Assembly (NCBI GenBank): GCA_036939355.1
Contig: JALLAP010001493.1
Span: 1 to 15,693 of the forward strand
Direction of reading: 5' to 3'
Length of the DNA stretch: 15,693 nt
Source: Thalassiosira profunda
Lineage: Eukaryota; Bacillariophyta; Thalassiosirophyceae; Thalassiosirales; Thalassiosiraceae
The notes beneath the pieces were generated by a model. It did not search any database. It was not told the origin of the DNA and worked only from the letters and a program-made list of their open reading frames with translations. Positions 501-15,693 of the stretch are shown piece after piece (positions within the stretch are counted from its first letter, which is position 1; each line of letters begins with the position of its first letter). The translations under genes and the position numbers were made by a program.

Positions 501-856
501 TTATGCGGCCTGGAGCAACGTAATGCTATCGCCCTTCAACAATATTCTCCCCACGTCCACCCGCTTGTCGGTCTTCAAGTCGACCTCCGTGGCCCCGTCC
601 AGCACGAAGTTCATGTACTCGTCGAACCCGACGATCTGCCCCTCGATGGCCATCCGCGTGTCCTCGTACAGCCAGACCTTCACCCGCGTCTTCTTCTGCG
701 AATGAGAGGGTTCATGTGAGATAATTGCAGTAACATGTGAATAGTGATCATCCGAGCACAATATCGTCGCAACTTGGATGGAGGACGCACCTGCAAATGG
801 CCGAAGATGACGTTGATGGGCAACGTCATCACCTTCTTGACTTTTCGCGGCGGCAT
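501..856 (-). CDS. SNRPE: Small nuclear ribonucleoprotein Sm E
   Basis: Two exons. Exon 1 is 856-791 (22 codons, [18 protein letters not shown] then GHLQ); exon 2 is 695-501 (64 codons plus stop). Both junctions are phase 0 and the product is 86 residues, close to the usual 90 or so for SmE. Sm1 is seen in [25 protein letters not shown]; Sm2 is [14 protein letters not shown]. SmE is one of seven proteins forming the ring around the U-rich Sm site of U1, U2, U4 and U5 snRNAs. The conserved N-terminal PIN.IF..LQ is only recovered by splicing, which supports the exon 1 call; unspliced reading gives an unrelated N-terminus. The gene is divergent from CD2BP2, another spliceosomal gene. Confidence 0.95.
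696..790 (-). other. Spliceosomal intron of SmE
   Basis: 95-nt phase 0 intron, read on the minus strand. The donor is CAG|GTGCGTC and the acceptor TTCGCAG|AAG. Splicing joins GHLQ to [11 protein letters not shown], matching the contiguous SmE family sequence. Confidence 0.92.
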
Positions 857-1282
857 GGTGGAAAATTATTGGCGTATGTTGCAAATCGAAGGGGGCCAAT
901 CGGCGGCTGTGAGAGCTCGAGGCTGAGAGGCGACGCGGCAAAGGCCAACGCAAAGAGGGTGCCGAGGGGAAGAGGAGGCGTCGACGGCGGCGGCGGGGAG
1001 CAAGGGCGAGCAGGGGCCGGGCGGGGGTGTTGTTGTGTTGTGTGTTGTGTGGTGGCGTAGCTGAAGGCACTACATAAATGAGGGGTAATAGTTATTGATA
1101 AATCTTCCTCATTATTGTCCCTACGGGGTGGAAGATGCATTTATTCCCTAAGAGAAAGGCATTAGTAGATACCGGGGGAGAAGTACAAATGAGGGGGCGA
1201 TTGCAAAAATCTTCGCCCCCTCCCCCCCCCTCCCACCGCCCACCCACCACCCACCCCCAAACGGAGCAAAGAGGCAAAGGCA
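857..1282. promoter_or_regulatory. Divergent promoter region of SmE and CD2BP2
   Basis: 426 bases between two divergent start codons. From the SmE side it contains a GC-rich stretch, then a GT-rich low-complexity run (about 1025-1055), an AT-rich centre (1072-1115, with CATAAATG and TTATTGATAAATC), and a C-rich run just before the CD2BP2 ATG. A perfect 10-bp inverted repeat (1191-1200 and 1213-1222) lies at the edge of the C-run. Frames crossing this region have no recognisable domain. Promoter function is inferred from the divergent layout. Confidence 0.55.
1191..1258. repeat. 10-bp inverted repeat followed by a 43-nt C-rich tract
   Basis: GAGGGGGCGA at 1191-1200 is exactly complementary to TCGCCCCCTC at 1213-1222, with a 12-nt A/T-rich loop. 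The right arm runs into 1216-1258, made almost only of C with a few A, T and one G. The opposite strand therefore has at least six runs of three or more Gs, which suits a G-quadruplex. It sits 25-67 nt before the CD2BP2 ATG, probably in the 5' UTR or core promoter. Confidence 0.6.
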
Positions 1283-2881
1283 ATGAGCAGCGGCGGAGCA
1301 CCCTCCCAAACGAGCCAAGGGGGCCGCGGGATCCTCCGCTCCCCCCACAAGGGCGCGGGGGGCAGCAATGGCGGGCCGAGGCGCGTGGCCTTTTCCGCGA
1401 CAGACGACGGCGACGATGCCAACAGGAAGAGGCGAACCCCGGCCATCAGATCCACAAACGAGGGGGGCTACGACAGCGACGAGGTCGAGGACGCCCTTTT
1501 GGCGTCCGGGGATGCCCTCTCCATGGGACTTCAGCACGGGGAATCTGATGGCGATGCGGACATGGACGACGCGGCGGTGCATTCGTTAGTCGATGTAGAG
1601 GAGGCGAAGCGACGAAGGGGGAAGGTCCGGAGAAGGGAGGACGGCGATGGCGCCGAAGAGTTCGACAAGGACGACATGGACGATCACGATGGGAGGGACG
1701 GGCGGGGACTGTCCCTCATCACAAATCAGAGCTTGGATCCGGAGCTGATGGAATCGAACGCGGGAGAGAACGCCGAGTGCCCGGTGGAGCCATTCAACAT
1801 GGAGGCCGAGAAGGAGAGCGGTTTGGGCTATTTTGATGGGGACACGTACGTCTTTCGCCAAAACAAGGGAGTGGACGGGGAGGAGGACGCGTGGCTGGAC
1901 GGGTTCGGAAGCGAAGACGAGAAGGATACAAGAGGGGGCGGGCTGGACTCGACGGCCGTGTGGAATCCCCCGGAGGCCAAGAAGGGGACGGCGGGGAAGC
2001 GCAAGGCCAAGTTCGTCAGCGAGGATGCAATACCGGAAGATCTGGGGCGAAGGGTGGTCACGTTATTGCAACGGGACGACGAGACGGTCATGGTGGCGCT
2101 GACGCGGTATGGGGCGGCGATGCGGGAATTGCAATCGCAGGAGCGGAAGAGGAGCAAGAAGGCCAAGGTGAAGAAGCGCAAATCCAAAGGCCAAGGCGCA
2201 GAAGAAGGGGATTCTGCGAAAGCATCGTCTGGTGATGCCGCTATGGAACAAAAGCTGTTGAAACGAAAGATGGTGCAGACGCGGGAGACGGTGGAAGAGC
2301 TGACGGAGCTGGCCGATGCGCTGTTGTTCGGAGGCGAGGCAGATGCGTATGAACTGACGCGGACGGATTGGATTCATCGATTCAAGCTGGAGCAGTACTT
2401 TCCCTCGGCCAAGAGGAAGCGATCTGCAGGGGAAGCCGAAGCAGGCGATGCGCCGGAGACGAAGAAGGGCCGTGGTTACTTTGAGGAGGCGGGCACTACC
2501 GCCGATCAGGAGGCAGTGTTTGAGCCCGACGCAACAACAAAGCCCCAGCACGCCGAGGTCCTCTGGGAGTACAAGGGGAACGAGGACGGCCAAATCCACG
2601 GCCCCTACACGAGTCAGCAGATGCTCGACTGGACGTCCCGGGGATACTTCGTCGGCGCGGGCGCCGTGGACATTCGAAAGGTGGGAAGCGGTGGCGCTAC
2701 GGGAGGGGACGCCAAGCCGAAGGAGGAGGCCAAAACGGACGTGGACGACCTGATGGCGGACCTCATGGACGACGACGACGAGGAAGGGGAGGCCAAGAAT
2801 GGGGCCGAGGATGCCGGCGCCGCTACGGAATCTTTTTGGATGCGCTCGGACCGGGTTGACTTCAGCCTGTATCTATCATAG
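1283..2881 (+). CDS. CD2BP2: CD2BP2/LIN1-like GYF-domain protein of the U5 snRNP
   Basis: An uninterrupted 532-codon frame starting at ATG 1283 after the C-rich tract. Near the start is ILRSPHKG; residues 170-206 match the family's PFN(M/L)..E.E.G.FD...Y...RQ...D.WLDG block. The middle (about 285-300) is a Lys/Arg-rich nuclear-localisation stretch. The GYF domain starts at residue 427 (LWEYKGN, then HGPYTSQQMLDW, RGYF) and closes at the C-terminus with FWMRSDRVDFSLYL, which mirrors the family's RIDFDLY end. CD2BP2 (yeast Lin1) is the U5-52K protein, binding U5 snRNP through Prp6 and Prp8-associated proteins before tri-snRNP assembly; its GYF domain binds proline-rich peptides. The GYF domain here is split by about 50 acidic residues (467-516). 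Neighbouring SmE is also an snRNP protein. Confidence 0.88.
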   Translation: MSSGGAPSQTSQGGRGILRSPHKGAGGSNGGPRRVAFSATDDGDDANRKRRTPAIRSTNEGGYDSDEVEDALLASGDALSMGLQHGESDGDADMDDAAVHSLVDVEEAKRRRGKVRRREDGDGAEEFDKDDMDDHDGRDGRGLSLITNQSLDPELMESNAGENAECPVEPFNMEAEKESGLGYFDGDTYVFRQNKGVDGEEDAWLDGFGSEDEKDTRGGGLDSTAVWNPPEAKKGTAGKRKAKFVSEDAIPEDLGRRVVTLLQRDDETVMVALTRYGAAMRELQSQERKRSKKAKVKKRKSKGQGAEEGDSAKASSGDAAMEQKLLKRKMVQTRETVEELTELADALLFGGEADAYELTRTDWIHRFKLEQYFPSAKRKRSAGEAEAGDAPETKKGRGYFEEAGTTADQEAVFEPDATTKPQHAEVLWEYKGNEDGQIHGPYTSQQMLDWTSRGYFVGAGAVDIRKVGSGGATGGDAKPKEEAKTDVDDLMADLMDDDDEEGEAKNGAEDAGAATESFWMRSDRVDFSLYLS

Positions 2882-3164
2882 CTACCGGTACAATGCAGCA
2901 TAATACTGAGCGTGCTTATGAGATGGATTGCTTCCGCTGTAGTCAAGAGGAATCGCAGCACCGACACTACCGTCGAGAGAAGGGGTTTCAACTTTGCTAT
3001 GTACGTAAGTTGGTACGTAACCTTACGTAGGTAACTGATTGAGTCATCCGCCGCGCCCTCGCGCTCGCGAGACGAGAGCTCGGCGCGGCGTGCCGTGTGG
3101 CACAATTCGAGGAGCGAGGAACACCACCAACCTCCTTGCAAGTCCACGCCGACCGTCGCGGCTA
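2882..3164 (+). promoter_or_regulatory. Photolyase upstream region with three TACGTA palindromes
   Basis: TACGTA occurs at 3002-3007, 3014-3019 and 3024-3029, i.e. three palindromic ACGT cores within 28 bases. ACGT-core palindromes are classic bZIP sites, and stramenopile aureochromes are light-regulated bZIP proteins that prefer TGACGT. The cluster lies inside an 11-codon upstream frame (ATG 2999 to TAA 3034). A role in light control of the photolyase is an inference from motif and position. Confidence 0.4.
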
Positions 3165-5108
3165 ATGCATTGTCCGCGGGGCAGTCTCGTCTGCGCAGCC
3201 ATCTTCTCCACCGCCAGCCGAGTTTGTGCCGCAAGTAGCAAAGGAGCTGCATCTCCCCTCGGCCATCGCATTGCTTTTGCAACTTCCCGTAATCGACCTC
3301 GCCTTTCATTGCAACAGCCGTCGGGTGCGTTCTCGGCTCGGACGTCTTCTCCTCCTCGCTATTCGTTCAGTCTCTGCGCCAAGGGCCAGGAAAAGTCCAG
3401 CGGTGCCGCCACCAAAAGGAAGTCGTCAACCACAACAAAATCCAAGAAGAAAGGCACCAAGCGAAAGATGTCCGCCACCAAGAAGAAGACCGCCGGCAAG
3501 AAGGGCGCGGCGAAAAATGACGCCCCCGCCATCCCGCACGCGCCCAACAGCCTCATCACGAGCGACTTTGACCAGACGCGGAGTAAGCTGCTCACGCTGA
3601 ACACGCCCCTTCCCCGGGAGAAGGGATCGCTTGAGGATCCGTGCGTTGTGTATTGGATGATGAGGGATATGCGGACGGTGGACAACTGGGCGTTGGTCTT
3701 TGCGCAGAGCCTCGCGGTGCAGAAGGAGGTGCCCCTGCGCGTGGTGTACTGCCTCCCTTCGCCGCCCGATGCCGAGGCTCCGGAGGGCGAGGATGGCGCC
3801 CCGCCCAGCCCGGCGGAGATGTCATTGACGGCCAGGCACGGGACCTTCCTACTGGATGGACTGAAGGTGGTGGTGGACGAGCTGACGTCGGCAAAGGTGC
3901 CTTTTGACGTGCTTTGCCCTGCGTCGCGTTCAGCTGTTGGAGACTCGATCCATTCCTACTGCACGACCTCATCTCACGATGCCCTTGCAGTGGTGTGCGA
4001 TATGTCTCCGCTGCGGTACCCTCGCCAGTGGACGGAGAAGCAAGCCGCGCCAAAGTTGGAAGCTGCTGGCATCCCGCTGTATCAGGTGGATGCGCACAAT
4101 GTTGTGCCGGTGTGGATTGCCTCTCCCAAACGGGAGGTGGGGGCTCGCACGCTCAGGCCAAAGATCCACAATGTCTTTGGAGATTACATGACGACGTTTC
4201 CAGAGTTCCACGGCAACAGTCATTTGGACGAAGAGGTGTCCGTGAGCAACAGTCATGACTGGGGACAATACAAAGACTTTCTGAGATTGGACGGCTCCAT
4301 CAAAGAGGTAAAGGGCATGGAGGCGGGCCATGAAGTGGCCATGAAGCGCTTTGCCACTTTCTGCAACTCGAAAGAGTACGGGCTGAAGAACTTTGACAAG
4401 CTCCGGAATGACCCCAACTATTCAGAGGTTTGCACCAATCTATCACCCTGGATCAATTTCGGACAAGTGTCGTTCCAGCGGTTGGCCCTTACGGTTCGCG
4501 CTCTCAAAAAGCACAGCAATGGCACCGCGGCGTACATCGAAGAGGGCGTCGTTCGCCGCGAGCTGAGCGACAACTTCGTGTATTACACGCCGGACGGATA
4601 CGACAGCCTCGCGGGTGCGGCCGATTGGGCGCGTCAGAGCTTGGAGCTGCATGCCTCGGACGAGCGCGAGAACTTGTACACTTGGAAGGAGCTGGAGGTC
4701 GGAATGACCCACGATGACTTGTGGAACGCGGCCCAACTCCAATTGGTGCGCGAGGGCGGCATGCACGGATTCATGCGCATGTACTGGGCAAAGAAGATTC
4801 TGGAATGGACCGCGTCGCCGGCCTATGCACTTGCCACGGCGCAATATTTCAATGACCGATACGCCTACGACGGAAACGACCCGAACGGATTCGTGGGCGT
4901 TGGGTGGAGCATCATGGGAATCCACGATATGGGGTGGAAGGAGAGGCCCATCTTCGGAAAGATACGGTACATGAACTATGCCGGTTGCAAGCGGAAGTTC
5001 AAGATCGACCCGTTCGTGGCCCGGTATCAGGGAGCTGCAGAGAATGCGGCCAAGGTGTCGGGCAGCAAGAAGCCGGCTAGCGTCTCTGGGAAGAAGCGCA
5101 AAGCGTAG
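3165..5108 (+). CDS. Class II CPD photolyase with N-terminal targeting/basic extension
   Basis: A DNA repair flavoenzyme that uses blue light and FADH- to split cyclobutane pyrimidine dimers. From ATG 3165 it is 647 residues without introns. The frame is open upstream to 3039, but only TTG lies there. Residues 1-75 are Ser/Ala/Arg-rich (SLVCAAIFSTASRVCAASS, then SGAFSART), like an organelle presequence; residues 76-118 are strongly basic with KKKGTKRK. The photolyase N-domain begins at about 157 (CVVYWMMRDMRTVDNWAL). FAD-domain signatures follow: NLSPWINFGQVSFQR (425-439), RRELSDNFVYY (464-474), THDDLWNAAQLQLV (515-528), MHGFMRMYWAKKILEW (533-548), and DPNGFVG with FGKIRYMNYAGCKRKF near 572-612. 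These are class II motifs, not those of cryptochromes or class I enzymes. A basic C-terminal tail (SGKKRKA) could be a nuclear signal. An in-frame ATG at 3468 could start a shorter nuclear form. Confidence 0.93.
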   Translation: MHCPRGSLVCAAIFSTASRVCAASSKGAASPLGHRIAFATSRNRPRLSLQQPSGAFSARTSSPPRYSFSLCAKGQEKSSGAATKRKSSTTTKSKKKGTKRKMSATKKKTAGKKGAAKNDAPAIPHAPNSLITSDFDQTRSKLLTLNTPLPREKGSLEDPCVVYWMMRDMRTVDNWALVFAQSLAVQKEVPLRVVYCLPSPPDAEAPEGEDGAPPSPAEMSLTARHGTFLLDGLKVVVDELTSAKVPFDVLCPASRSAVGDSIHSYCTTSSHDALAVVCDMSPLRYPRQWTEKQAAPKLEAAGIPLYQVDAHNVVPVWIASPKREVGARTLRPKIHNVFGDYMTTFPEFHGNSHLDEEVSVSNSHDWGQYKDFLRLDGSIKEVKGMEAGHEVAMKRFATFCNSKEYGLKNFDKLRNDPNYSEVCTNLSPWINFGQVSFQRLALTVRALKKHSNGTAAYIEEGVVRRELSDNFVYYTPDGYDSLAGAADWARQSLELHASDERENLYTWKELEVGMTHDDLWNAAQLQLVREGGMHGFMRMYWAKKILEWTASPAYALATAQYFNDRYAYDGNDPNGFVGVGWSIMGIHDMGWKERPIFGKIRYMNYAGCKRKFKIDPFVARYQGAAENAAKVSGSKKPASVSGKKRKA

Positions 5109-5519
5109 GACACTCTTCTTCATCAATTTCAACACATATCACATCTAGAGAGCATCATCACGATCGCCTTGTCTCTTAGTTCCTCTTGGTCGGAATGTTT
5201 GTACAACGTACAGATCTAGCTAACCATCACTCCTCTTCATTCAACGACCTCCAGCTCCAGCTTCCTCAACAACAACAACTCAAACACAAGCTGCCCAAAC
5301 GACGACCGGCCGACGTCTCCCAGCGCCTCTTCGACGGAACGGACTGCCCGGCCCTTGGGCATTGGTCGGCTCGTGACGGTGGTGGCATTGACGAGCAGCG
5401 GTATTATCAGGCACTAGTTCAACACAAGCAGATACGAGGTGCACCACAAGGTGCACCAGTTCTCAACAGAGAGACTTTCAATACCAGCTCGACAAATCCG
5501 CCTCATTTGTTTCAACATC
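5109..5519. promoter_or_regulatory. Intergenic: photolyase 3' end and Deg protease promoter
   Basis: 411 bases between two genes on the same strand. The A/T-rich start (5109-5160) probably holds the photolyase 3' UTR, though I see no AATAAA. The remainder has CAA-rich stretches (about 5263-5285), typical of a 5' leader. Two copies of the 8-bp palindrome GGTGCACC lie at 5438-5445 and 5450-5457, separated by ACAA, 63-82 bases before the Deg ATG. No gene was recognised. Confidence 0.45.
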
Positions 5520-8158
5520 ATGAGCGCCATGGTGCACATCTTATGTGCATTCATCCTACTACCGGCGGCGCAAGCGCTGGCGTTCCCCGCCAGCAGCACC
5601 GCCGCGCTCACAACACGTGCGCCGTCATCTTGGTGCGGTCAGCCACCACTAGGATTTCATGCTACTACCACTGCGTCTCATGCCACAACATTTTGTGATC
5701 ACAGTAGACAGAGAAGAAGATGTAGTTACTTGTTCCTTTCTCTCGGGAAAGGTGGCGATGATGAAGATTTGCAAAGCATTGACAGCAACCCAGATGCAAC
5801 TGATGCCGAGAATAATTCCACAAATGCAACGAAGGAAACAAAACAGCACGAGCACGATGATCTCGTTGCTGACGACGACGGAAAGCTGGCTTTAGGAATG
5901 GAGAGTGGGTGGAGCAGCTTTGGACGGCACATCCTGCATTTATGGGCGTCTTCTGAGCCATCTCATTCAGCACCACAAGATATTGCTGCTGCAGATCGAA
6001 ATGCGTCTGGCGATGGTGGTGGCTCAATGCTTTCCCCAACTTTGATCTATCCTTCGAATGAAACAGCAAATGTCGCAGAGAGGAGTGGCGTGATTGACGT
6101 GGATGCCCAAGTGGTAGAACCAGAACGCAACAATGGCACGTCGTTACAGGTTTATAATGCGACCGATGGACCCATTTCGAAGACCAAGATGGCGAAGCAG
6201 CTTCTCAAGGGCGTGCAGGCTGTCCTAGTGAAGGGGGGAAAGAAACTGCTGGATGCCAGCAGGGAGATCCTGGACGGAGGGGAAGGTGCCGCATCACCTG
6301 TAACTATTGAATCAAACGCAACTCTGAGCGACGTCTCGAATGATGACAGTTCTGGTGAGCAAGAAGTCGGAAGTGATGAAGCGCAGGACGCTGGTATTGA
6401 AAACCGACGACGTCGACGGTCAAAGATCAGGGAATCATTGCACGACAGCAGCGCGATATTTACTTCTCTGGAGTCGAAAGATATCGACACAACAACACGC
6501 TCGAAGCAAATGAAATGGGAACGTCGAAGAAAGAGGGCACTGGTACTGGGCAAAGCTGCAAAGAACGCAGTCGTACTCTTCGTTGTTACTTTTCTGGCCG
6601 GCAATGTGATGAACCAGTTTGTCGACTTGGACGAAGATGGCAGCTTTGAGGTTCATTTTGGCAAAGTGCTGTCATCTCCGTCGCCGTCGCCTGCCTCTGG
6701 TGGTCCTGCGCCACCGGCCACCACTCCCAACAGATCGGAGAAGACCCAAACAAAACCAACCACGAAAAAGAAGTTATTCCATACCGTCGCAACGCCAAAA
6801 CAGAACTACAATGTGGATGGAGCGCGTGCTCAGGCCCTCGGCTTGGTCTCGAGGGCTGTCCAGCGCGTCGGGCCGGCTGTGGTGCGCGTCGAAACCGAGA
6901 CGCATTTGGATGGGGTCGATGGAAACGCCGAGATCAATGGCGATGATAGTGGAGACCTCTCTAGCGATGGGGAAGATAGGGGAGACGTGTTCGATGGCGT
7001 GCCAGAATTGGAGTCGGATGACGCAGGCCAAAACATTGACTTTGGGCAAGGCTCTGGCTTTTTGGTGAATAGCCAGGGATACATTCTGACCAACGCCCAT
7101 GTCGTGGAGGGAGCGACGAGGGTTTACGTGCTTCTAACTGATGGGAGAAGGTTCCGGGCAGAGATACAAGGCGCCGACGATATTGTGGACGTGGCTGTTC
7201 TCAAAATCGTGCCCGACCCGGACGAAGCCGGCAGGTCTACCAAGCGGAAACTTGACATCGCCAACCTGCCTTCTGCTCAACTTGGCAATTCGGACCAAAT
7301 GGAAGTGGGGCAATTTGTCACCGCGATTGGTAGCCCTGGTGGCCTCGATAATACGTGCACGTGAGTGTTTGTCTGATTTGCCTGGCCTCCTCTTATGTGC
7401 TGGTCATACCTCATCCATCTTCTGCTGGCATCCTCTCAGAATTGGGATCGTCTCCGGGTTGAAGCGCTGTCCAAAGATAGTGGGCATACCAGACAAACTG
7501 GGAGCACTCGATTACATCCAGACCGATGCTGGTGAGCGCTCGCTATATGTTGACTTGCTTTAGGCCTTCTCTGGAGAATTGCTCACTCCTCTCTCTGATA
7601 TGAGTAGCCATTAATCAAGGCAACAGTGGAGGCCCACTTGTCGACGTCGAAAGTGGCAACATTGTCGGGATCAACACTTGTATTCGAGCGAACATGGAAG
7701 GCACTAGCTTCGCCATTCCCATAAATAAAGTCATGGGCATCGTGGACGACCTTGCGGAAGGAAAGCGGATAACCCACGGCTATCTTGGGGTGCAAATGAC
7801 GACGATGAATCCGACACTTGCTCGATACTACAATAAAGTCCAGCCTAACGAGAGTGGCAGGAGAATCCCCGAAAAGGAAGGAGTGATGATTGAAAAGGTG
7901 TTCAAGAAGTCTCCTGCGCAGTCGGGAGGGCTGCAGAAGTTCGATTTCGTCACGGAGATCGGAGGGCAGCGCCTTGAAAATGCAGACGATGCGCACGTCG
8001 TCATTGACCGGTCGGCAGTTGGAGAGGAGTTGAGCATCAAAGTAATGCGCGACGATGCCGAGATGACGGTTAGGGTTAAGCCGGAGGACCTCTCACCTCG
8101 CCTCAAAAAGCTGCGCAAAGAAAGGCTGAAAAGAAAGAAGGTAGGGGTTAAGGAGTAA
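5520..8158 (+). CDS. Deg/HtrA-family serine protease with plastid-type presequence and one PDZ domain
   Basis: Three exons: 5520-7360, 7440-7531 and 7608-8158, giving 827 residues. The N-terminus MVHILCAFILLPAAQALA|FP is a signal peptide ending in an ASAFAP-like site with Phe at +1, followed by a Ser/Thr-rich, acid-poor stretch to about residue 76; in diatoms this bipartite form directs proteins to the plastid. Residues 80-330 are charged and have no domain I recognise. Residues 349-364 (NAVVLFVVTFLAGNVM), preceded by RRRKR, form a likely membrane segment. The trypsin-like domain follows with His527 (TNAHVV), Asp557 (DIVDVAVLKI) and Ser651 (GNSGGPL), all present. A single PDZ domain spans about 700-806, then a Lys/Arg-rich tail. 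HtrA proteins degrade damaged or misfolded proteins; plant Deg proteases do so in thylakoids. The exact compartment and substrates are not shown by sequence. Confidence 0.9.
7361..7439 (+). other. Intron 1 of the Deg protease gene
   Basis: 79 nt, donor CAC|GTGAGTG, acceptor CTCTCAG|AATTGG. It splits a Thr codon (AC/A). Splicing gives GLDNTCTIGIVSGLKR, matching the continuous HtrA pattern GLDNTVT.GIVS; without splicing the frame stops at once. Confidence 0.92.
7532..7607 (+). other. Intron 2 of the Deg protease gene
   Basis: 76 nt, donor CTG|GTGAGCG, acceptor GAGTAG|CCATTA. It splits an Ala codon (G/CC). Splicing yields QTDAAINQGNSGGPL, the catalytic serine block of HtrA enzymes. Confidence 0.92.
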
Positions 8159-8233: not shown

Positions 8234-11200
8234 CTAGAATACAATGTCAATGGCGCGCATGATCTCATAGAGTGAGAGGGCTGTTGCCAGAGTTTGATTG
8301 GAGACCTTGCCGTAGTCGTTTGAGGCATCGCCAATGCTGTTGAGCAGCTCCTCTGAGGTTCTGCTGACGTATTTTGCAACCTTCGACGTTTGCTTCTCGT
8401 TCAGCAATTGGTGGTAACGATCGACCAGAGTCACCGATGCACTACTCTGCAAAGCTTGCCGTACGATTGCCTGGCGCATCACCGGGAGGAATGCCATTGC
8501 CTCGTTTGGGGAAAGAACATCGGAGCCAATGGCAAAGCCAACAAGAGTGTCTCTCCTTGCAATCGACAGGCTTCCAAGCCCTACATTTGCACAGCAGTCG
8601 TTCTGGACGTTGCCTTGAATGCTGGTGCTTCGCATCGAACTGGAACAGCAGTGCACTTTGGCGTCGTCTGTGACACCGTGATTTGCTGCAGAGAGAATCC
8701 ATTGCTTCTCTTTCAAGAGTGGCATCACATACTCTGACGGCCGATTTGGGTGCATCTGACGAACGAGCATTTCTGCAATGCATCGCGGATCTTTTTCCCC
8801 AGGCATACTCGATAAAGCTGGATGGTCACTGCTTGTCAAACAAGTAAGAATATTGACTCCAGCGGCAACCTCAAATGGTAGCGATGCACCAAGGAATTCA
8901 GTTCTCTCAGACCTGCTTCCTCTTTGGGAGCAAGCCCTTGCCAATGATGTCAAACAGTGCAGGTCCAGTGGGTCAATCCCGGTTTGCGCTTTGGATGATT
9001 TGGTCCAGCCGGTGTCGTCTTCGGCAAACACCATCGACAGGGACGCGTAAACCGACGCTGGAATGAAATCGTTCAGGCCAACGTCAATACTCAATCGCCC
9101 AAAGGTATCCTCCAAGCTGTCTCCGACGTCACAAGCATTGTAACTAGTCGCGGTGCCTCCATAACCGACAGCTGTTGGCCTCCCATCACCTCTCAGAGTC
9201 CTGCGGTAGCAAAGTGGTGGCATGGAGCCAATTGACTCTGCTCTGAGCATCGGCGACAGTGCTTGGGTGCAGGATTGCAAAACGTGTGTAGAAGGAAGCC
9301 ACGCATCAGGCTGCTGGGCAGTCAGAGACCCGGCCTTGAGACGGCACTCAACAATTCCGGGCTTGTGAGCGTTCAGCGTTTTGACCTCGCATTGAAATGG
9401 CGGCGGCATACTCTTGAATGACCTGTTCACGAGAGCAGCCATCTGTGTCGCCGATCTGATCTCCTTCATTGCGTGATTTGATTGATGATTGACTGCGTCA
9501 CATTGCTCCTCTGTGTCGCATCTGCTCTGCTTCATATTTGCTGACCTGAGCTGTTGGATGACAGACTCAAGCACTGTCGATCCACTTTTGTTCGGGTTGC
9601 TGATGCGGTCGATCTCATTTGGTCTGGCAGCAATTTGGTCGCTAGAGCTAGACTGCGGACCAGACAGAGACGATTTGTCCAGAGATAGTACGAGCACTTT
9701 CCCTCCGGGGGAAGACACCACAAATGTACCGCGGGTCGGTCCAGGATGGCAATGAACAGATGACGCTGCCGATATTGGAAGGCGCTGTGAATTGTATTCG
9801 CCACCATGCCTAGACGTGCCATCCACGCTGCTTGCAGATTGCCCGAGCATTGAGTGGCAAAGGAATGTTTGCCTCGAATCGTTCACTGCCACAAATGACA
9901 CGACAGCTGTAGGCGACTCCAATGCTCCAGGGCTGGAACGAGCGCAATCTCGGTTGTCGAGAAAGCGGCACCCAACGCATTCCATTGATACCCAGCGCCC
10001 TCCACGAGGCTTCAATGACTGTTCAATTGCAAACTTTGGTATACTGGCGGGCTTGCGCGGCCCGAGAAAGGAGGAAAGGGAGATGACTGTGCCCATCGCA
10101 CCAATACAAAGCAAGACGGGCGCCGCTGCCGCCGACTTGTCTGAGCCAAATGCCAGTAGAGGCAAGTTGAGAGATACCAGCGGCTCGTTTTCGCCCAATT
10201 GCAATATGGTTGTGGCTTTGCTAACCGCAAGGGTAACCCTTGCTGGTCCTTTAGACGCACTTGGCTGGCTAATAACGATGGATGCACGCACGGTTCCATC
10301 TTTGAAGCNCCCTTGCTGGTCCTTTAGACGCACTTGGCTGGCTAATAACGATGGATGCACGCACGGTTCCATCTTTGAAGCCCATCAGGACAACGCCCGC
10401 ATCGCACTCATCGTCGTCGATACCGGGCGGCAATTCTGCATCTTCAGTCGAATATGATTCAATGGCCGATATGACCTTCTTCCAAATCTGCGGCCCAACC
10501 TTTAGTCGGGAGGCAAACAGGATGCAGGTCATTGGGACGTGGATATTTTCTAGGCCGGGGACTTCCGACCAAGCCAGACCCGAACATTGGTAGCTGGCGC
10601 CTGATCCATCAGCCTCAGAGCATCCAGACGAAGACAAGAGCATCGCAATAGGCGGCGATTGTGATGCCGGAATGCAAAGATCGATATTCGAGGCAACCAA
10701 GTGAATTGAGTCACTTTGTGCAGTCGTTCCCCCCTCGAGCTTTCTCTTCCGCCCCTTCCCTTTGGTGGGAGAAGATTTCGATGGCGATTTTGCGTGTGTG
10801 GGGGTCATACGGCCGCCCGATTCCAACCTTGCAGTCAGCGTATTTGTCATAGTCAATGGTGGGGGGGAGCAGCCATCCGATGTCTCAGTCTGTTTCTTTG
10901 TTGACTTTGCTTTCTTCCCTCTTTTGGGCGTATCTCCACGAGCAGCAGCATTGAAGGTGCATTCCTGCATATCCAGAAGATATTGCTCGCTTTTCCCCTG
11001 CACTAAGTGACAAGTGTGGAGCCTCCCAGATTTATCGGTGGCAAGCAAAATGGAGTGTGGCCGCACAGTTCTAGCACCATTGTCTTGCCGGGCACAGGGG
11101 ACAATACCCACCGTACAAAAGGACGGTGCATCGTCTGGCGAGTATTGCATGCCCACCACACGGCAGCCATGGCCATTTGCTGCCGGTGGATTCTCCGCAA

Positions 11201-11634
11201 TTGTGGCTAGGGATATCCTCCCCTTCGTTGACGTGCCCTCGTCCTGGGTATCGTCGCNGTGGATTCTCCGCAATTGTGGCTAGGGATATCCTCCCCTTCG
11301 TTGACGTGCCCTCGTCCTGGGTATCGTCGCCATTGGCGCTGGTGCACGTGGCGACCAACGTCGTGCGTTTGTCGTCAATTCCATGCCCGTCGTTCAATTC
11401 CCCCTCCAGCTCATTGCAACTGACGCTTGCAATTGCAACGGACGGAGGTGGGGCACCGCTGCTGCACAGGTCAATGGGCAATCCGCGTCGCCTCCGATTG
11501 CTCAACGACGTCGGTCTGCGAGAGCGGTGGCATGATGGCGAGTTGAGGGTGACCACCGATCGGACGCTGCCAGCAGGGAGAAGCGGGGCCTCGCCGCTAT
11601 TCCGGTCCCCATTTGGGAGATGCGAGGAAGACAT
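8234..11634 (-). CDS. Large protein, probably FAAP100-like (Fanconi anaemia core complex component); frame interrupted by assembly artefacts
   Basis: From ATG 11634 to TAG 8234 the gene reads as one 1084-residue protein once two 72-bp assembly duplications, each with its N, are counted once; as deposited it falls into three frames. No introns seen. The N-terminal 600 residues look like a beta-propeller with long disordered loops: strand-like blades such as ILLATDKSGRLHTCHL, VVLMGFKDGTVRASIVI and GTFVVSSPGGKVLVLSLD. Two basic stretches (213-223, 269-275) could be nuclear signals. A helical segment follows (638-690), then beta-sandwich-like pieces (697-735, 798-822, 867-888) and a helical C-terminus (993-1083). 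This order (propeller, short coiled coil, beta-rich platform, helical end) and local resemblances match animal FAAP100, which pairs with FANCB and FANCL in monoubiquitinating FANCD2-FANCI at DNA crosslinks. Overall similarity is weak, so the name is an inference; a different propeller scaffold is possible. Confidence 0.45.
10237..10381. repeat. 72-bp exact duplication around a single N (assembly join)
   Basis: Bases 10237-10308 and 10310-10381 are identical over 72 bases with only N10309 between them. The reading frame of the minus-strand gene enters the right copy (ending ASKGPAR) and continues after the left copy (VTLAVSK), so counting the repeat once restores a continuous protein. This fits two contigs with overlapping ends joined by a token gap rather than a real tandem repeat. 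Confidence 0.9.
11186..11330. repeat. Second 72-bp exact duplication around a single N (assembly join)
   Basis: Bases 11186-11257 and 11259-11330 are identical over 72 bases, flanking N11258. Collapsing them joins the frames at LATIAENPPAANG. The repeat length is exactly that of the other join, which points to one assembly parameter as the cause. Confidence 0.9.
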
Positions 11635-11866: not shown

Positions 11867-13099
11867 ATGAACATTGACTTCTTCTCCGCACTCCCAGAAG
11901 ACCCGGTGAAGCACATCTTGGGTTATGTCAGCGTGCCGCGTGCTTTGATGGCGTGCGAGAGGGCGTGCACCAGATTCCGACGAATCTTATCAGACGACAG
12001 CGTCTGGAGATACTGCAAAGGAGCAGATGCCGAGAGGGTGGAGTCTTACAGGGAAAATGCGTTAATCGAGGCAGTATTGGGGGAAATTCGTATCGAACAA
12101 AAGCGTTCGAGAAGAATACTAAACCTGTCTCCCGAATCGGTTCGAAGCATCATTGATGTCGGACTCACTCGAACGATTCTTGAAACAGCCTGGGGAGGGC
12201 CCCCGCCCGTAGACTTTACGTTTGACATTCGAGGAGATGCTCTTGGATTAGCTCTGGATGTGGTGGAAGGTCATATCATTGCAACGCTTCAAAACGCCAA
12301 TCTGACAGCCATACACGCCGCACGAAACGACTATCCTGAGGTCGAATCACAAGATCTGAATCTCGTCTGGCGCATTCGTTTCAGTGAAACTGATAATGCT
12401 GCTTTGCATTGCATTTGGGGATTTAGTGGCGTAGCCTTGACAACGCAAATCGATGAAGCGATTGAAAGGGAGTGGGATGAGGCAGAGCGTATTCGACTCG
12501 TTCGACGCCTCGCAAATCGAGCTGGCATTGTAAAGATATCCAACGTGGCAATGCACCAAGTTAGCAGGGATATCATCCGATGGCTGGTCGTTCTCATCAG
12601 GAAGCCTATGGTACATCACGAGAAGCAACTCTGGCCGAAACAAGTGAGGTTCGATTCAACAGAATCTATAGATCTCTGGAGTGACATCCCACCTGCCATC
12701 CGCACTGTTGGGGTGGGAAACAGGCCTGGAGAAATTCATTGTGTGATAGTGCCTGCTCAAATCGCTGATGCGGCAAAAGATGCGGGCTTGCCCGCTTATG
12801 GAGAGGGGAGAGGATGGGTTTTGTCGGAGAATCAGACTCTCGAAGAGGCCACAAATGCGGCCAAGGAGCGTTATATGATTCAATCAAGTTATGCTTTCGA
12901 CGAAGATGAAATGTCAACTTCTTCTAATGATAGCGAGTTCAAGAGCCTGTCCGTCACTGACGAAGACAGCTATTCCGTTTATGACGACGACGATTGCCCG
13001 GATGGAAACTGGCCCTATCCGATGTACGGTGAAGAGGGATATATTCCAGGAAGAAGTGTGATCGTTGATCAGCAACTGAATGATATGAAAGAAGGGTGA
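11867..13099 (+). CDS. F-box protein with fused H3-like and H4-like histone folds
   Basis: A 410-residue intronless frame; the first ATG is 11867 (upstream in-frame codons offer only GTG). Residues 4-50 form an F-box (LPEDPVKHILGYV, ending SDDSVWRYC), the part that binds Skp1 in SCF ubiquitin ligases. Residues 71-171 align with histone H3: LGEIRIEQK against H3 LREIRRYQK (alpha-N), DFTF against DLRF (loop 1), NLTAIHAAR against NLCAIHAKR (alpha-2), and DLNLVWRIR against DIQLARRIR (alpha-3). Residues 212-252 align without gaps with H4 alpha-1 to alpha-2 (VRRLANRAGIVKIS against IRRLARRGGVKRIS). After a 39-residue insertion, residues 292-314 match H4 loop 2, alpha-3 and tail (AAKDAGLPAYGEG against ALKRQGRTLYGFG). 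Residues 345-390 are acidic. Basic histone tails are absent. It is therefore unlikely to be a core nucleosomal histone; a ubiquitin-ligase receptor that mimics or binds H3-H4 or its chaperones is inferred. Codon use is less GC-biased than in the proteasome genes beside it. Confidence 0.8.
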   Translation: MNIDFFSALPEDPVKHILGYVSVPRALMACERACTRFRRILSDDSVWRYCKGADAERVESYRENALIEAVLGEIRIEQKRSRRILNLSPESVRSIIDVGLTRTILETAWGGPPPVDFTFDIRGDALGLALDVVEGHIIATLQNANLTAIHAARNDYPEVESQDLNLVWRIRFSETDNAALHCIWGFSGVALTTQIDEAIEREWDEAERIRLVRRLANRAGIVKISNVAMHQVSRDIIRWLVVLIRKPMVHHEKQLWPKQVRFDSTESIDLWSDIPPAIRTVGVGNRPGEIHCVIVPAQIADAAKDAGLPAYGEGRGWVLSENQTLEEATNAAKERYMIQSSYAFDEDEMSTSSNDSEFKSLSVTDEDSYSVYDDDDCPDGNWPYPMYGEEGYIPGRSVIVDQQLNDMKEG

Positions 13100-13260: not shown

Positions 13261-14158
13261 TCATGTCTCCATGGCATCCTCGTCCTTCTCCCCCTCTGCA
13301 TCACCATCACCACCCTCATCGTCGTCGTCGTCCCCTCCGTTGTTTCCCCCCTCCAACTCCAGCCGATCCAGGTACGGCTGCAGCTCGTCCCCCTCGATCA
13401 CCACGAACTTCTCGTCCTTCCCCACGATACCGATGCTCCCGTTCTCCTTCGTCAACTCCCCGTCCCCGCTCACGCACCCCACCAGCGCCCGGAGCGCGTG
13501 CATGATGAGGTCGTCCCGCGAGCACTCGGGGAAACTCTCGTGGTGCTTCTCCAGGTACGTCCGCCCGCTCTGGCTCCGCGCCCCGATGGCCGTGGCGTAG
13601 CACTCGTAGACGTTTCCGGACGGGCACGTCTGGTAGACGTGCGGCCCGTTCTTGTCGAACGACGCCAGGAGCAGTCCCACCCCGTACGGCCTCCTCACAT
13701 AGGTCTGGGTGGTGCGCTGGTGCCGGTCCGCGAGGTCGGTGGCCAGCCGCCCCGTGGGCATGGACGTCCCGTAGACGTACTTGTGGTTGAGGCACTCGTT
13801 CCGCATCCACTTGGCGAGGGTTCGCGCGTCGGCGGTGAGGCCGGCGATGCCGATGCCGAGGTGGTCGTCGATTTCGAGGAGCTTTTGCTGGTGGGACGAG
13901 AGCTCGGAGACGGCCCGCTTGAGGGCTCCGAGGACTGAGTGGGTGGAGGAGCGAAGGGCGATGCAGGCCGACCCCTGCTTGACGGATTCCATGGCGTATT
14001 CGACCTGCACATGATTTGCAATAGATTGATTGAGAGGGGTGAGGGGGGAGAGGATCGGTTGCAAATCAATGGAGGCACATCTCGTGCTAACTCACCTGAA
14101 GCAGACGGCCCTCGGGGCTCCAGACCGTCACGTCGGTGTCATACATGTTCCGAAACAT
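13261..14158 (-). CDS. PSMA1: 20S proteasome subunit alpha type 1 (alpha-6)
   Basis: Two exons: 14158-14096 (21 codons) and 14004-13261 (247 codons plus stop), phase 0, giving 268 residues against about 263 in animals. Exon 1 is [21 protein letters not shown] less its last residue in typical alignments, the alpha-subunit N-terminal gate segment; exon 2 begins [13 protein letters not shown], the signature after it. Later family blocks are [54 protein letters not shown] and SIGIVGKD. Alpha subunits form the outer rings of the 20S core and gate substrate entry; they are not catalytic. The C-terminus is a low-complexity acidic tail ([16 protein letters not shown]). The gene is head-to-head with RPT5 and tail-to-tail with the F-box gene. 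Confidence 0.96.
14005..14095 (-). other. Intron of PSMA1
   Basis: 91 nt, phase 0, donor CAG|GTGAGTT, acceptor ATGTGCAG|GTC on the minus strand. It contains a perfect 10-bp inverted repeat (14012-14021 and 14059-14068, TGATTTGCAA/TTGCAAATCA). Translation through the intron produces an N-terminus unlike the family. Confidence 0.93.
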
Positions 14159-14683: not shown

Positions 14684-15693
14684 ATGTCCGATGATTTAGA
14701 GGGAGCGGATATTTGGGGAGACGCGGGTGACGCCGGCAGCGGCGGCGATGCCCCGGAGAAGGGCGACAAGCCCTCCGGCGCGGCCAGCGGAGGCGATGGA
14801 GGCGGCGAGGAGTCCAAGCAGGACGAGCCCGCCGCGGCCGACGAGGACGAGGACATGATCGACGACGAAACGGCGGCCATGTCCACGGCCGAGCTCCGCC
14901 AGCGCATCCAGCTGATCGACAACGAGGTTCGCATTTTTCGGAGCGACATCCAGAGGATCCAGCACGAGAGTCGGGGGCAGCGGGAGGCGATCCGGGAGAA
15001 CATCGAGAAGGTCAAACTGAACAAGCAGCTCCCCTATTTGGTCGGGAACGTCGTGGAGGTGCTGGAGCCGGACGCCGAGGACGGATTGGAAGAGGAGGAG
15101 GCCGACGAGGGCGGCGCCACCGACGTCGACGCCCAGCGCAAGACCCGCTCGGCCGTCATCCGGACCTCCACCCGCCAGACCATCTACCTCCCCGTCCCGG
15201 GCCTCGTCGACACCGACGAGCTCAAGCCGTCCGACCTCGTGGGGACCAACAAGGATTCCTACCTCATCCTCGAGAAGCTCCCCGCCGAATTCGACTCCCG
15301 CGTCAAGGCCATGGAGGTCGACGAGCGTCCCACCGAGGAGTACTCGGACATTGGCGGGGCCGACAAGCAGATCCAGGAACTGATCGAGGCCATCGTCCTC
15401 CCCATGACGCACAAGGACATGTTCGACACGATCGGGATCAAGCCCCCCAAGGGGGTGCTCCTCCACGGTCCGCCGGGGACGGGGAAGACGCTGCTGGCGC
15501 GCGCGTGCGCCAACCAGACCAACGCCGTGTTCCTCAAACTGGCGGGACCGCAGTTGGTTCAGATGTTCATCGGGGACGGCGCCAAGCTGATCCGGGACGC
15601 GTTCGAATTGGCCAAGGAGAAGATCGCCGACGGCACGAGCTGCGGGGCGATCATCTTCATCGACGAGTTGGACGCCATTGGCACGAAGCGGTT
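14684..15693 (+). CDS. PSMC3: 26S proteasome regulatory ATPase RPT5, 5' part
   Basis: 336 complete codons from ATG 14684 to the right edge; the full protein is usually about 430-440 residues, so the C-terminal AAA+ subdomain and HbYX tail are missing. Residues 1-60 are an acidic, Gly-rich extension. Residues 66-115 form the coiled coil that pairs with a partner ATPase (Rpt4 in other eukaryotes). The OB domain follows ([37 protein letters not shown]). The AAA+ domain has [20 protein letters not shown] (221-240), Walker A GPPGTGKT (262-269), the pore loop region [14 protein letters not shown] and Walker B IIFIDEL (323-329). RPT5 is one of six ATPases of the 19S base that unfold substrates and open the 20S gate. 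A six-residue insertion (IADGTSCGA in place of APS or APA) lies just before Walker B. It is divergent from PSMA1. Confidence 0.96.

Follow-up and report, generated by a model that had tools for sequence, protein, structure and literature searches.

Two histone folds joined in one polypeptide have been catalogued among archaeal doublets, Sos, ABTB2, SPT3, bacterial and animal single-domain proteins, and viral proteins; as far as the available part of this 2026 review goes, doublets of the H3-H4-like type come from viruses, and eukaryotes are represented by Sos, ABTB2, SPT3, and the animal single-domain proteins (PMC13088155). Here we describe an F-box protein that is encoded within a 15,693-nucleotide stretch of DNA (the window) from the diatom Thalassiosira profunda and that almost certainly carries, behind its F-box, an H3-H4-like double histone fold. 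The gene is located on contig C1109 of a genome assembly of 21.8 Mb in 1366 contigs. Its open frame lies exactly where a first-pass annotation of the window had placed it (11867-13099, plus strand, from ATG to TGA), and we refer to its product of 410 amino acids as P0001.

The Marseilleviridae doublet (Melbournevirus; 7n8n chain A) has the order H4-H3 and belongs to a giant virus, whereas the protein described here has H3 before H4, possesses an F-box in front of them, and is encoded by a diatom. It also differs from the Melbournevirus doublet in having no known role in genome packaging, and a viral source was rejected after one pattern, run against IMG/VR, had matched 16 stretches of which none encodes a relative. 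A single-chain H3-H4-like pseudodimer has likewise been predicted for HzNV-1; it is viral, the abstract of that report makes no mention of an F-box, and we set it beside the diatom protein by description alone (PMC1866393). In the available text of the review, the histone domain of Sos (1q9c, 3ksy) is H2B-H2A-like and part of a signalling protein, and ABTB2/Cca3 resembles the diatom protein in that its double histone fold is joined to a second type of domain, BTB; the related Cca3S family is, however, H2B/H2A-like, animal, and equipped with a BTB domain instead of an F-box (PMC13088155). With its BTB domain, ABTB2 comes closest to the diatom protein in spirit. BTB domains often serve as cullin adaptors and are linked to CUL3. 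SPT3 (6t9i, 7ktr) is a subunit of the transcription coactivator SAGA, and to our knowledge neither SPT3 nor Sos possesses an F-box.

From the other side, the yeast Skp1-cullin-F-box (SCF) ligases SCF-Met30 and SCF-Cdc4 degrade an H3 variant (PMC7032732, available part), and the accessible portion of a further report counts Rcy1 among the F-box receptors degrading this variant, CENP-A, and describes a WD40 domain in Met30 (PMC13079627). Term searches found none of the words "F-box," "ubiquitin," "diatom," and "stramenopile" in the main text of the double-histone-fold review (PMC13088155), nor "F-box" in the main text, as available, of a survey of viral histones (PMC11222145). Double histone folds are known and F-box receptors are known, and no earlier report of their fusion was found in the open-licence literature. 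We know of no histone fold in Met30, Cdc4, or Rcy1.

The F-box and the two histone-like segments

The N-terminal F-box proposed by the first-pass annotation is recognized by Pfam (PF12937, 31.0 bits against a curated cut-off of 24.3), and the Pfam matches in P0001 are confined to F-box families; neither ankyrin repeats nor a BTB domain were detected. For the remainder of the protein, we compared an alignment of 24 family members (P0001-P0024 and a paralogue on contig C98; P0005 was omitted because it repeats P0008) with reference histone folds by hhalign. Residues 58-178 matched H3 with a probability of 96.3 (score 57.1 over 91 columns), whereas H4, H2A, H2B, HMfB, NF-YB, NF-YC, TAF9, and TAF6 each stayed below 3. 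Not one of 300 column shuffles reached this score (maximum 28.6), and the reversed alignment scored 9.4. Residues 198-325 matched H4 best, at a probability of 44.8 (score 28.2 over 38 columns), with the next of the eight other references at 2.6; again none of 300 shuffles did as well (maximum 22.4), and the reversed alignment scored 14.0. The signal of this second segment, which is weaker than that of the first, is located in α1, loop 1, and α2. Both histone-like segments that had been claimed were thus recovered, and so was their order: when the segments were compared crosswise, as an H4-then-H3 arrangement would demand, the probabilities fell to 0.25 and 0.63, and the scores were reached by 59 and 4 of 300 shuffles. 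The other histone-fold families tried (TAF6, TAF9, NF-YB, NF-YC, H2A, H2B, HMfB) were rejected on their probabilities below 3, with a single exception that concerns HMfB and clade B of the family tree described below. When this clade is taken by itself, HMfB and H3 fit the first segment equally well (scores of 28.45 and 28.54, with probabilities of 59.1 and 37.8, respectively); H3 was best in the other three of the four sub-clades taken separately.

A search of the Protein Data Bank (PDB) with a seven-member profile points in the same direction. Among the best 60 of its 228 matches, 42 were H3 or CENP-A, 6 were H4, 11 were F-box proteins, and 1 was another protein; H2A or H2B did not occur among these 60. 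The best histone was Cnp1 of Schizosaccharomyces pombe (E 0.0017), aligned from αN to the end of α3. On whether the first half derives from CENP-A rather than H3, the comparisons diverge: Cnp1 was the top histone in the PDB, but hhalign scored H3 (52.5) above CENP-A with Cse4 (44.8). With a 21-member profile, the H3 matches were gone, and the 13 hits consisted of 4 H4, 7 F-box, and 2 other proteins. When an H3 profile was run on the 24 members, 845 open reading frames (ORFs) of the window and the loci, and the 24 reversed members, solely 6 of the 24 members (best E 1.5e-4) and the same genes as ORFs fell below an E-value of 0.9. The Pfam Histone family (PF00125) matched the locus of P0007 (E 7.4e-4; 23.7 bits against a cut-off of 26.4) and, by hmmscan, one of seven members (1.3e-4). 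In P0005 and its near-twin P0008 the likeness to H3 is visible by eye, VRKYQKSTENLLLDVL standing opposite IRRYQKSTELLIRKLP of H3. The equivalent of Q55 in the H3 αN helix is a glutamine in 21 of 22 members, and R122 in the H3-like loop 1 is nearly invariant. Judged from its sequence, the first half is specifically H3-like. In the second half, few parts of the family are kept as well as the loop-1 motif of H4: the equivalents of H4 G42 (24/24), R35 and A38 (each 23/24), and R40 (20/24) are retained, and R45 is replaced by lysine in 22/24 (in P0001 numbering, G220 24/24, R213 23/24, K223 22/24, and R218 20/24).

Template-free AlphaFold2 models were built for P0001 and P0008, and a double histone fold was formed in both of them. 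In P0001 the folds occupy residues 61-174 and 205-305, in agreement with the spans 71-171 and 212-314 that had been predicted from the letters. Histone pairs and SAGA chains filled the top structural ranks (1-27 for P0001 and 1-36 for P0008); Foldseek gave no match at an E-value of 0.001 or better, and chance alone gives helical models middling Z-scores in such a structural comparison. The view that the two histone folds of one chain are clasped as a pseudodimer is well supported by these models. The first-pass annotation had staked its proposal on a profile search against histone families and on a structure prediction; the former matched H3 and H4, and the latter built histone folds in both proteins.

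A multi-copy diatom family

A search with P0001 against 5.8 billion proteins, in which 8000 candidates were scored, found three relatives (P0002-P0004) with 33-37% identity over 62-92% of the query; a later alignment-based search, also with 8000 scored candidates, recovered two of these three. When the trimmed paralogue P0005 from the same genome served as the query, 17 relatives were found, including proteins of T. profunda and Skeletonema menzelii (EukProt) and an MMETSP transcript; at least one family member is therefore transcribed. P0005 is 99% identical to T. profunda ACHAXT_005151 (P0008). The model of P0008 contains a long C-terminal helix (residues 491-578), a part in which the P0005 frame of this genome differs.

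Counting the window gene, the genome contains at least five members; the others are P0005, P0006, P0007, and the paralogue on contig C98. In a maximum-likelihood tree of the 24 aligned members (midpoint-rooted for drawing), clade A comprises P0001-P0004 and P0024, clade B comprises P0006, P0007, and the C98 paralogue, and the third group holds 16 members with P0008, 11 of which make up a clade containing S. menzelii. Several members, P0001 included, sit on long end branches. All three groups are represented in the genome, with P0008 standing in for P0005. P0006 and the C98 paralogue (loci L003 and L014, on contigs C75 and C98) are each followed downstream by the same neighbor gene, by eye a peptidase; this pair therefore looks like a segmental duplicate, and we suggest that it arose in this way. 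A match to the UVR motif (PF02151, E 0.0027) was seen in one protein in a Pfam scan of the 21-member set. The order F-box, H3, H4 recurs across the family, and the near-identity of P0005 to a T. profunda protein bears out the guess that the gene is a stramenopile one. What the first-pass annotation noticed is real: these diatom proteins form a multi-copy family in which an F-box is combined with an H3-H4-like double histone fold.

Constraint was assessed from the ratio of nonsynonymous to synonymous substitution rates (dN/dS) between the paralogues P0006 and C98, rather than from P0001. With synonymous divergence near saturation in several parts, the lowest values fall on the F-box (0.08), the H3-like fold (0.09), and the H4-like fold (0.09 for α1-α2 and 0.05 for α3); higher values were obtained for the linker and the N-terminal part (0.15 each), the stretch from the F-box to the H3-like fold (0.29), the tail (0.36), and the loop-2 insertion (0.51). 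In the 21-member alignment, 17 columns are invariant or nearly so, and every one of them falls in the histone part, within residues 62-223 of P0001; F-box columns may be missing from this list because fragments without the F-box keep them off.

Possible roles of the histone pair

We infer that the F-box binds Skp1, that the protein is a member of a ligase, and that the pseudodimer binds a substrate; P0001 is probably an SCF receptor that uses its histone pair as an interaction module. The F-box would dock on Skp1, as expected from this type of domain, the H3-like and H4-like halves would clasp each other, and the surfaces of the predicted pseudodimer, possibly with the help of the acidic tail, would hold a substrate that the SCF ligase would then ubiquitylate. 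The genome carries Skp1 genes at three loci and a cullin-family gene. Since the receptor copies the shape of H3-H4, the likeliest substrates would be proteins that recognize H3-H4, such as histone chaperones, or surplus histones, and this choice of substrates is a guess. The full proposal, an SCF substrate receptor whose divergent H3-then-H4 double fold captures histones or H3-H4-recognizing proteins, is therefore put forward tentatively. Its more specific form, a family of diatom SCF receptors that present an H3-H4 look-alike as bait for chaperones, remodellers, CENP-A loaders, or free histones, and so place chromatin assembly under proteolytic control through mimicry, is more doubtful still.

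Several observations weigh against an H3-H4-mimicking receptor or limit the case for it. A phmmer search of 177,635 distinct PDB sequences with P0001 gave H3 as the top match at an E-value of only 0.09 (residues 116-171) and H4 at 0.94 (residues 211-252), so that the single sequence is not significant alone. PF00125 gave no hit in P0001 or in any protein of the 21-member set. In each of the four sub-clades alone, H4 came first for the second segment, yet at low probability (3.6-12.0), and an H4 profile by itself was not significant (best E 0.06, for P0001, with a reversed decoy at 0.62); by sequence, then, the H3-like half is the more certain of the two, and the identity of the H4-like half, though well supported, owes more to position, fold, and loop-1 motif than to a strong profile score. 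The predicted structures do not tell H3-H4 from H2A-H2B. The motifs that the first-pass annotation had quoted all occur in P0001 but are not all kept family-wide, and the YG.G tail motif of H4, present in P0001, is lost in the 11-member clade that includes S. menzelii. Among the equivalents of H113, R116, and D123, which we take to be residues of the H3-H3' four-helix bundle, all three are present in P0001, and family-wide H113 is found in 6/24, R116 in 7/24, and D123 in 21/24 members; a tetramer-like pairing with a cellular H3-H4 dimer is thus not a conserved feature. A finding of uncertain weight is that human H3 and H4 queries found no canonical copy of either in the assembly, although H2B is present (L005), perhaps since they reside in unassembled repeats, and that ASF1 was not found in this assembly.

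The histone module may instead serve protein interaction in general or regulation, as the histone domain of Sos does, with a substrate unrelated to chromatin. We regard this as somewhat less likely than the main proposal, since it is H3 in particular, and not the histone fold as such, that is matched, and since the loop-1 motif of H4 is so well kept. That the pseudodimer tethers the SCF ligase to DNA or nucleosomes is a good deal less likely: the conserved basic residues of the H4-like α1 and loop 1 (R213, R218, and K223), the nearly invariant R122, and the net charge of +8 over residues 205-258 of P0001 would suit such a tether, but DNA contacts are partly lost, the equivalents of H4 R39 and K44 being replaced in 24/24 members, and the H3-like part, with a net charge of -4 in P0001 less basic than H3-H4, is net negative in 11/24 members and followed by a strongly acidic tail. 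The place of the basic N-terminal histone tail, which is not kept, is occupied by the F-box. More improbable again is a histone chaperone, or a mimic of H3-H4, that bears an acidic tail and whose F-box serves its own turnover or Skp1 binding outside a ligase. The tail is net negative in all 22 members that bear one (of 24; -18 over residues 319-410 of P0001), and F-box-like matches occur in only 12 of 21 members, although several of those without a match are fragments that miss this part; between P0006 and C98, however, constraint is among the weakest in the tail and among the strongest in the F-box. Surface charges and residues single out no one partner. Finally, a chance resemblance or a convergent helical domain, for which the weak single-sequence E-values, the 21-member profile (no H3 among its 13 hits), the empty Foldseek search, and the middling Z-scores of helical models might be cited, is hardly credible and is rejected on the shuffle, reversal, and cross-family controls, the restriction of the H3 profile hits to six members and their ORFs, and the histone pairs or SAGA chains that fill the first 27 and 36 structural rows.

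The locus and its meaning

Features of the window gene and of its product P0001
Feature	Coordinates	Strand	Residues	Basis and remarks
Whole coding sequence	11867..13099	+	410 aa plus stop	ATG at 11867, TGA at 13097-13099; frame without intron
F-box	11882..12010	+	6-48	PF12937
H3-like histone fold	12047..12388	+	61-174	hhalign to H3, column shuffles, AlphaFold2
Secondary structure of the H3-like fold			αN 61-79, α1 89-99, strand 117-121, α2 123-151, α3 161-174	AlphaFold2
Linker joining both folds	12389..12478	+	175-204	Part helix (178-184, 189-202); AlphaFold2
H4-like α1 and α2, including the loop-1 motif RRLANRAGIVKIS	12479..12631	+	205-255	hhalign to H4, shuffles
Loop-2 insertion of the H4-like fold, before α3	12632..12733	+	256-289	Low model confidence; length varies across the family alignment
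Loop-2 strand and α3 of the H4-like fold	12734..12781	+	290-305	AlphaFold2 and alignment
Acidic C-terminal tail, disordered	12890..13096	+	342-410	Predicted local distance difference test (pLDDT) below 50 over most of it

Two proteasome-related genes lie downstream of the F-box gene. One (13261-14064, minus strand) encodes a 20S proteasome subunit (PF00227, 165 bits), and the other (14684-15691, plus strand), which runs past the contig end, encodes a proteasomal AAA ATPase (PF16450 and PF00004); this neighborhood is possibly a coincidence. The region 501-8158 contains further genes for an LSM protein (minus strand), a GYF-domain protein (plus strand), and a member of the DNA photolyase/cryptochrome family (plus strand), as well as a frame for a trypsin-like protease and, after it, one with a PDZ domain (plus strand), possibly a single Deg-type gene with an intron. 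At 10237-10381 and at 11186-11330 there are two exact 72-nucleotide direct repeats, one at each site, with the paired copies of each 1 base apart (spacing 73). The translations read X at these sites, which are probable scaffold joins and seemingly disrupt a minus-strand gene in 8234-11273.

If the proposal of an SCF receptor with an H3-H4-like module is true, this protein family would represent a new route by which proteolysis is linked to histone supply or chromatin, with partners that are directly testable. It may give the protein-disposal system of the cell access to histones or to histone-binding proteins.
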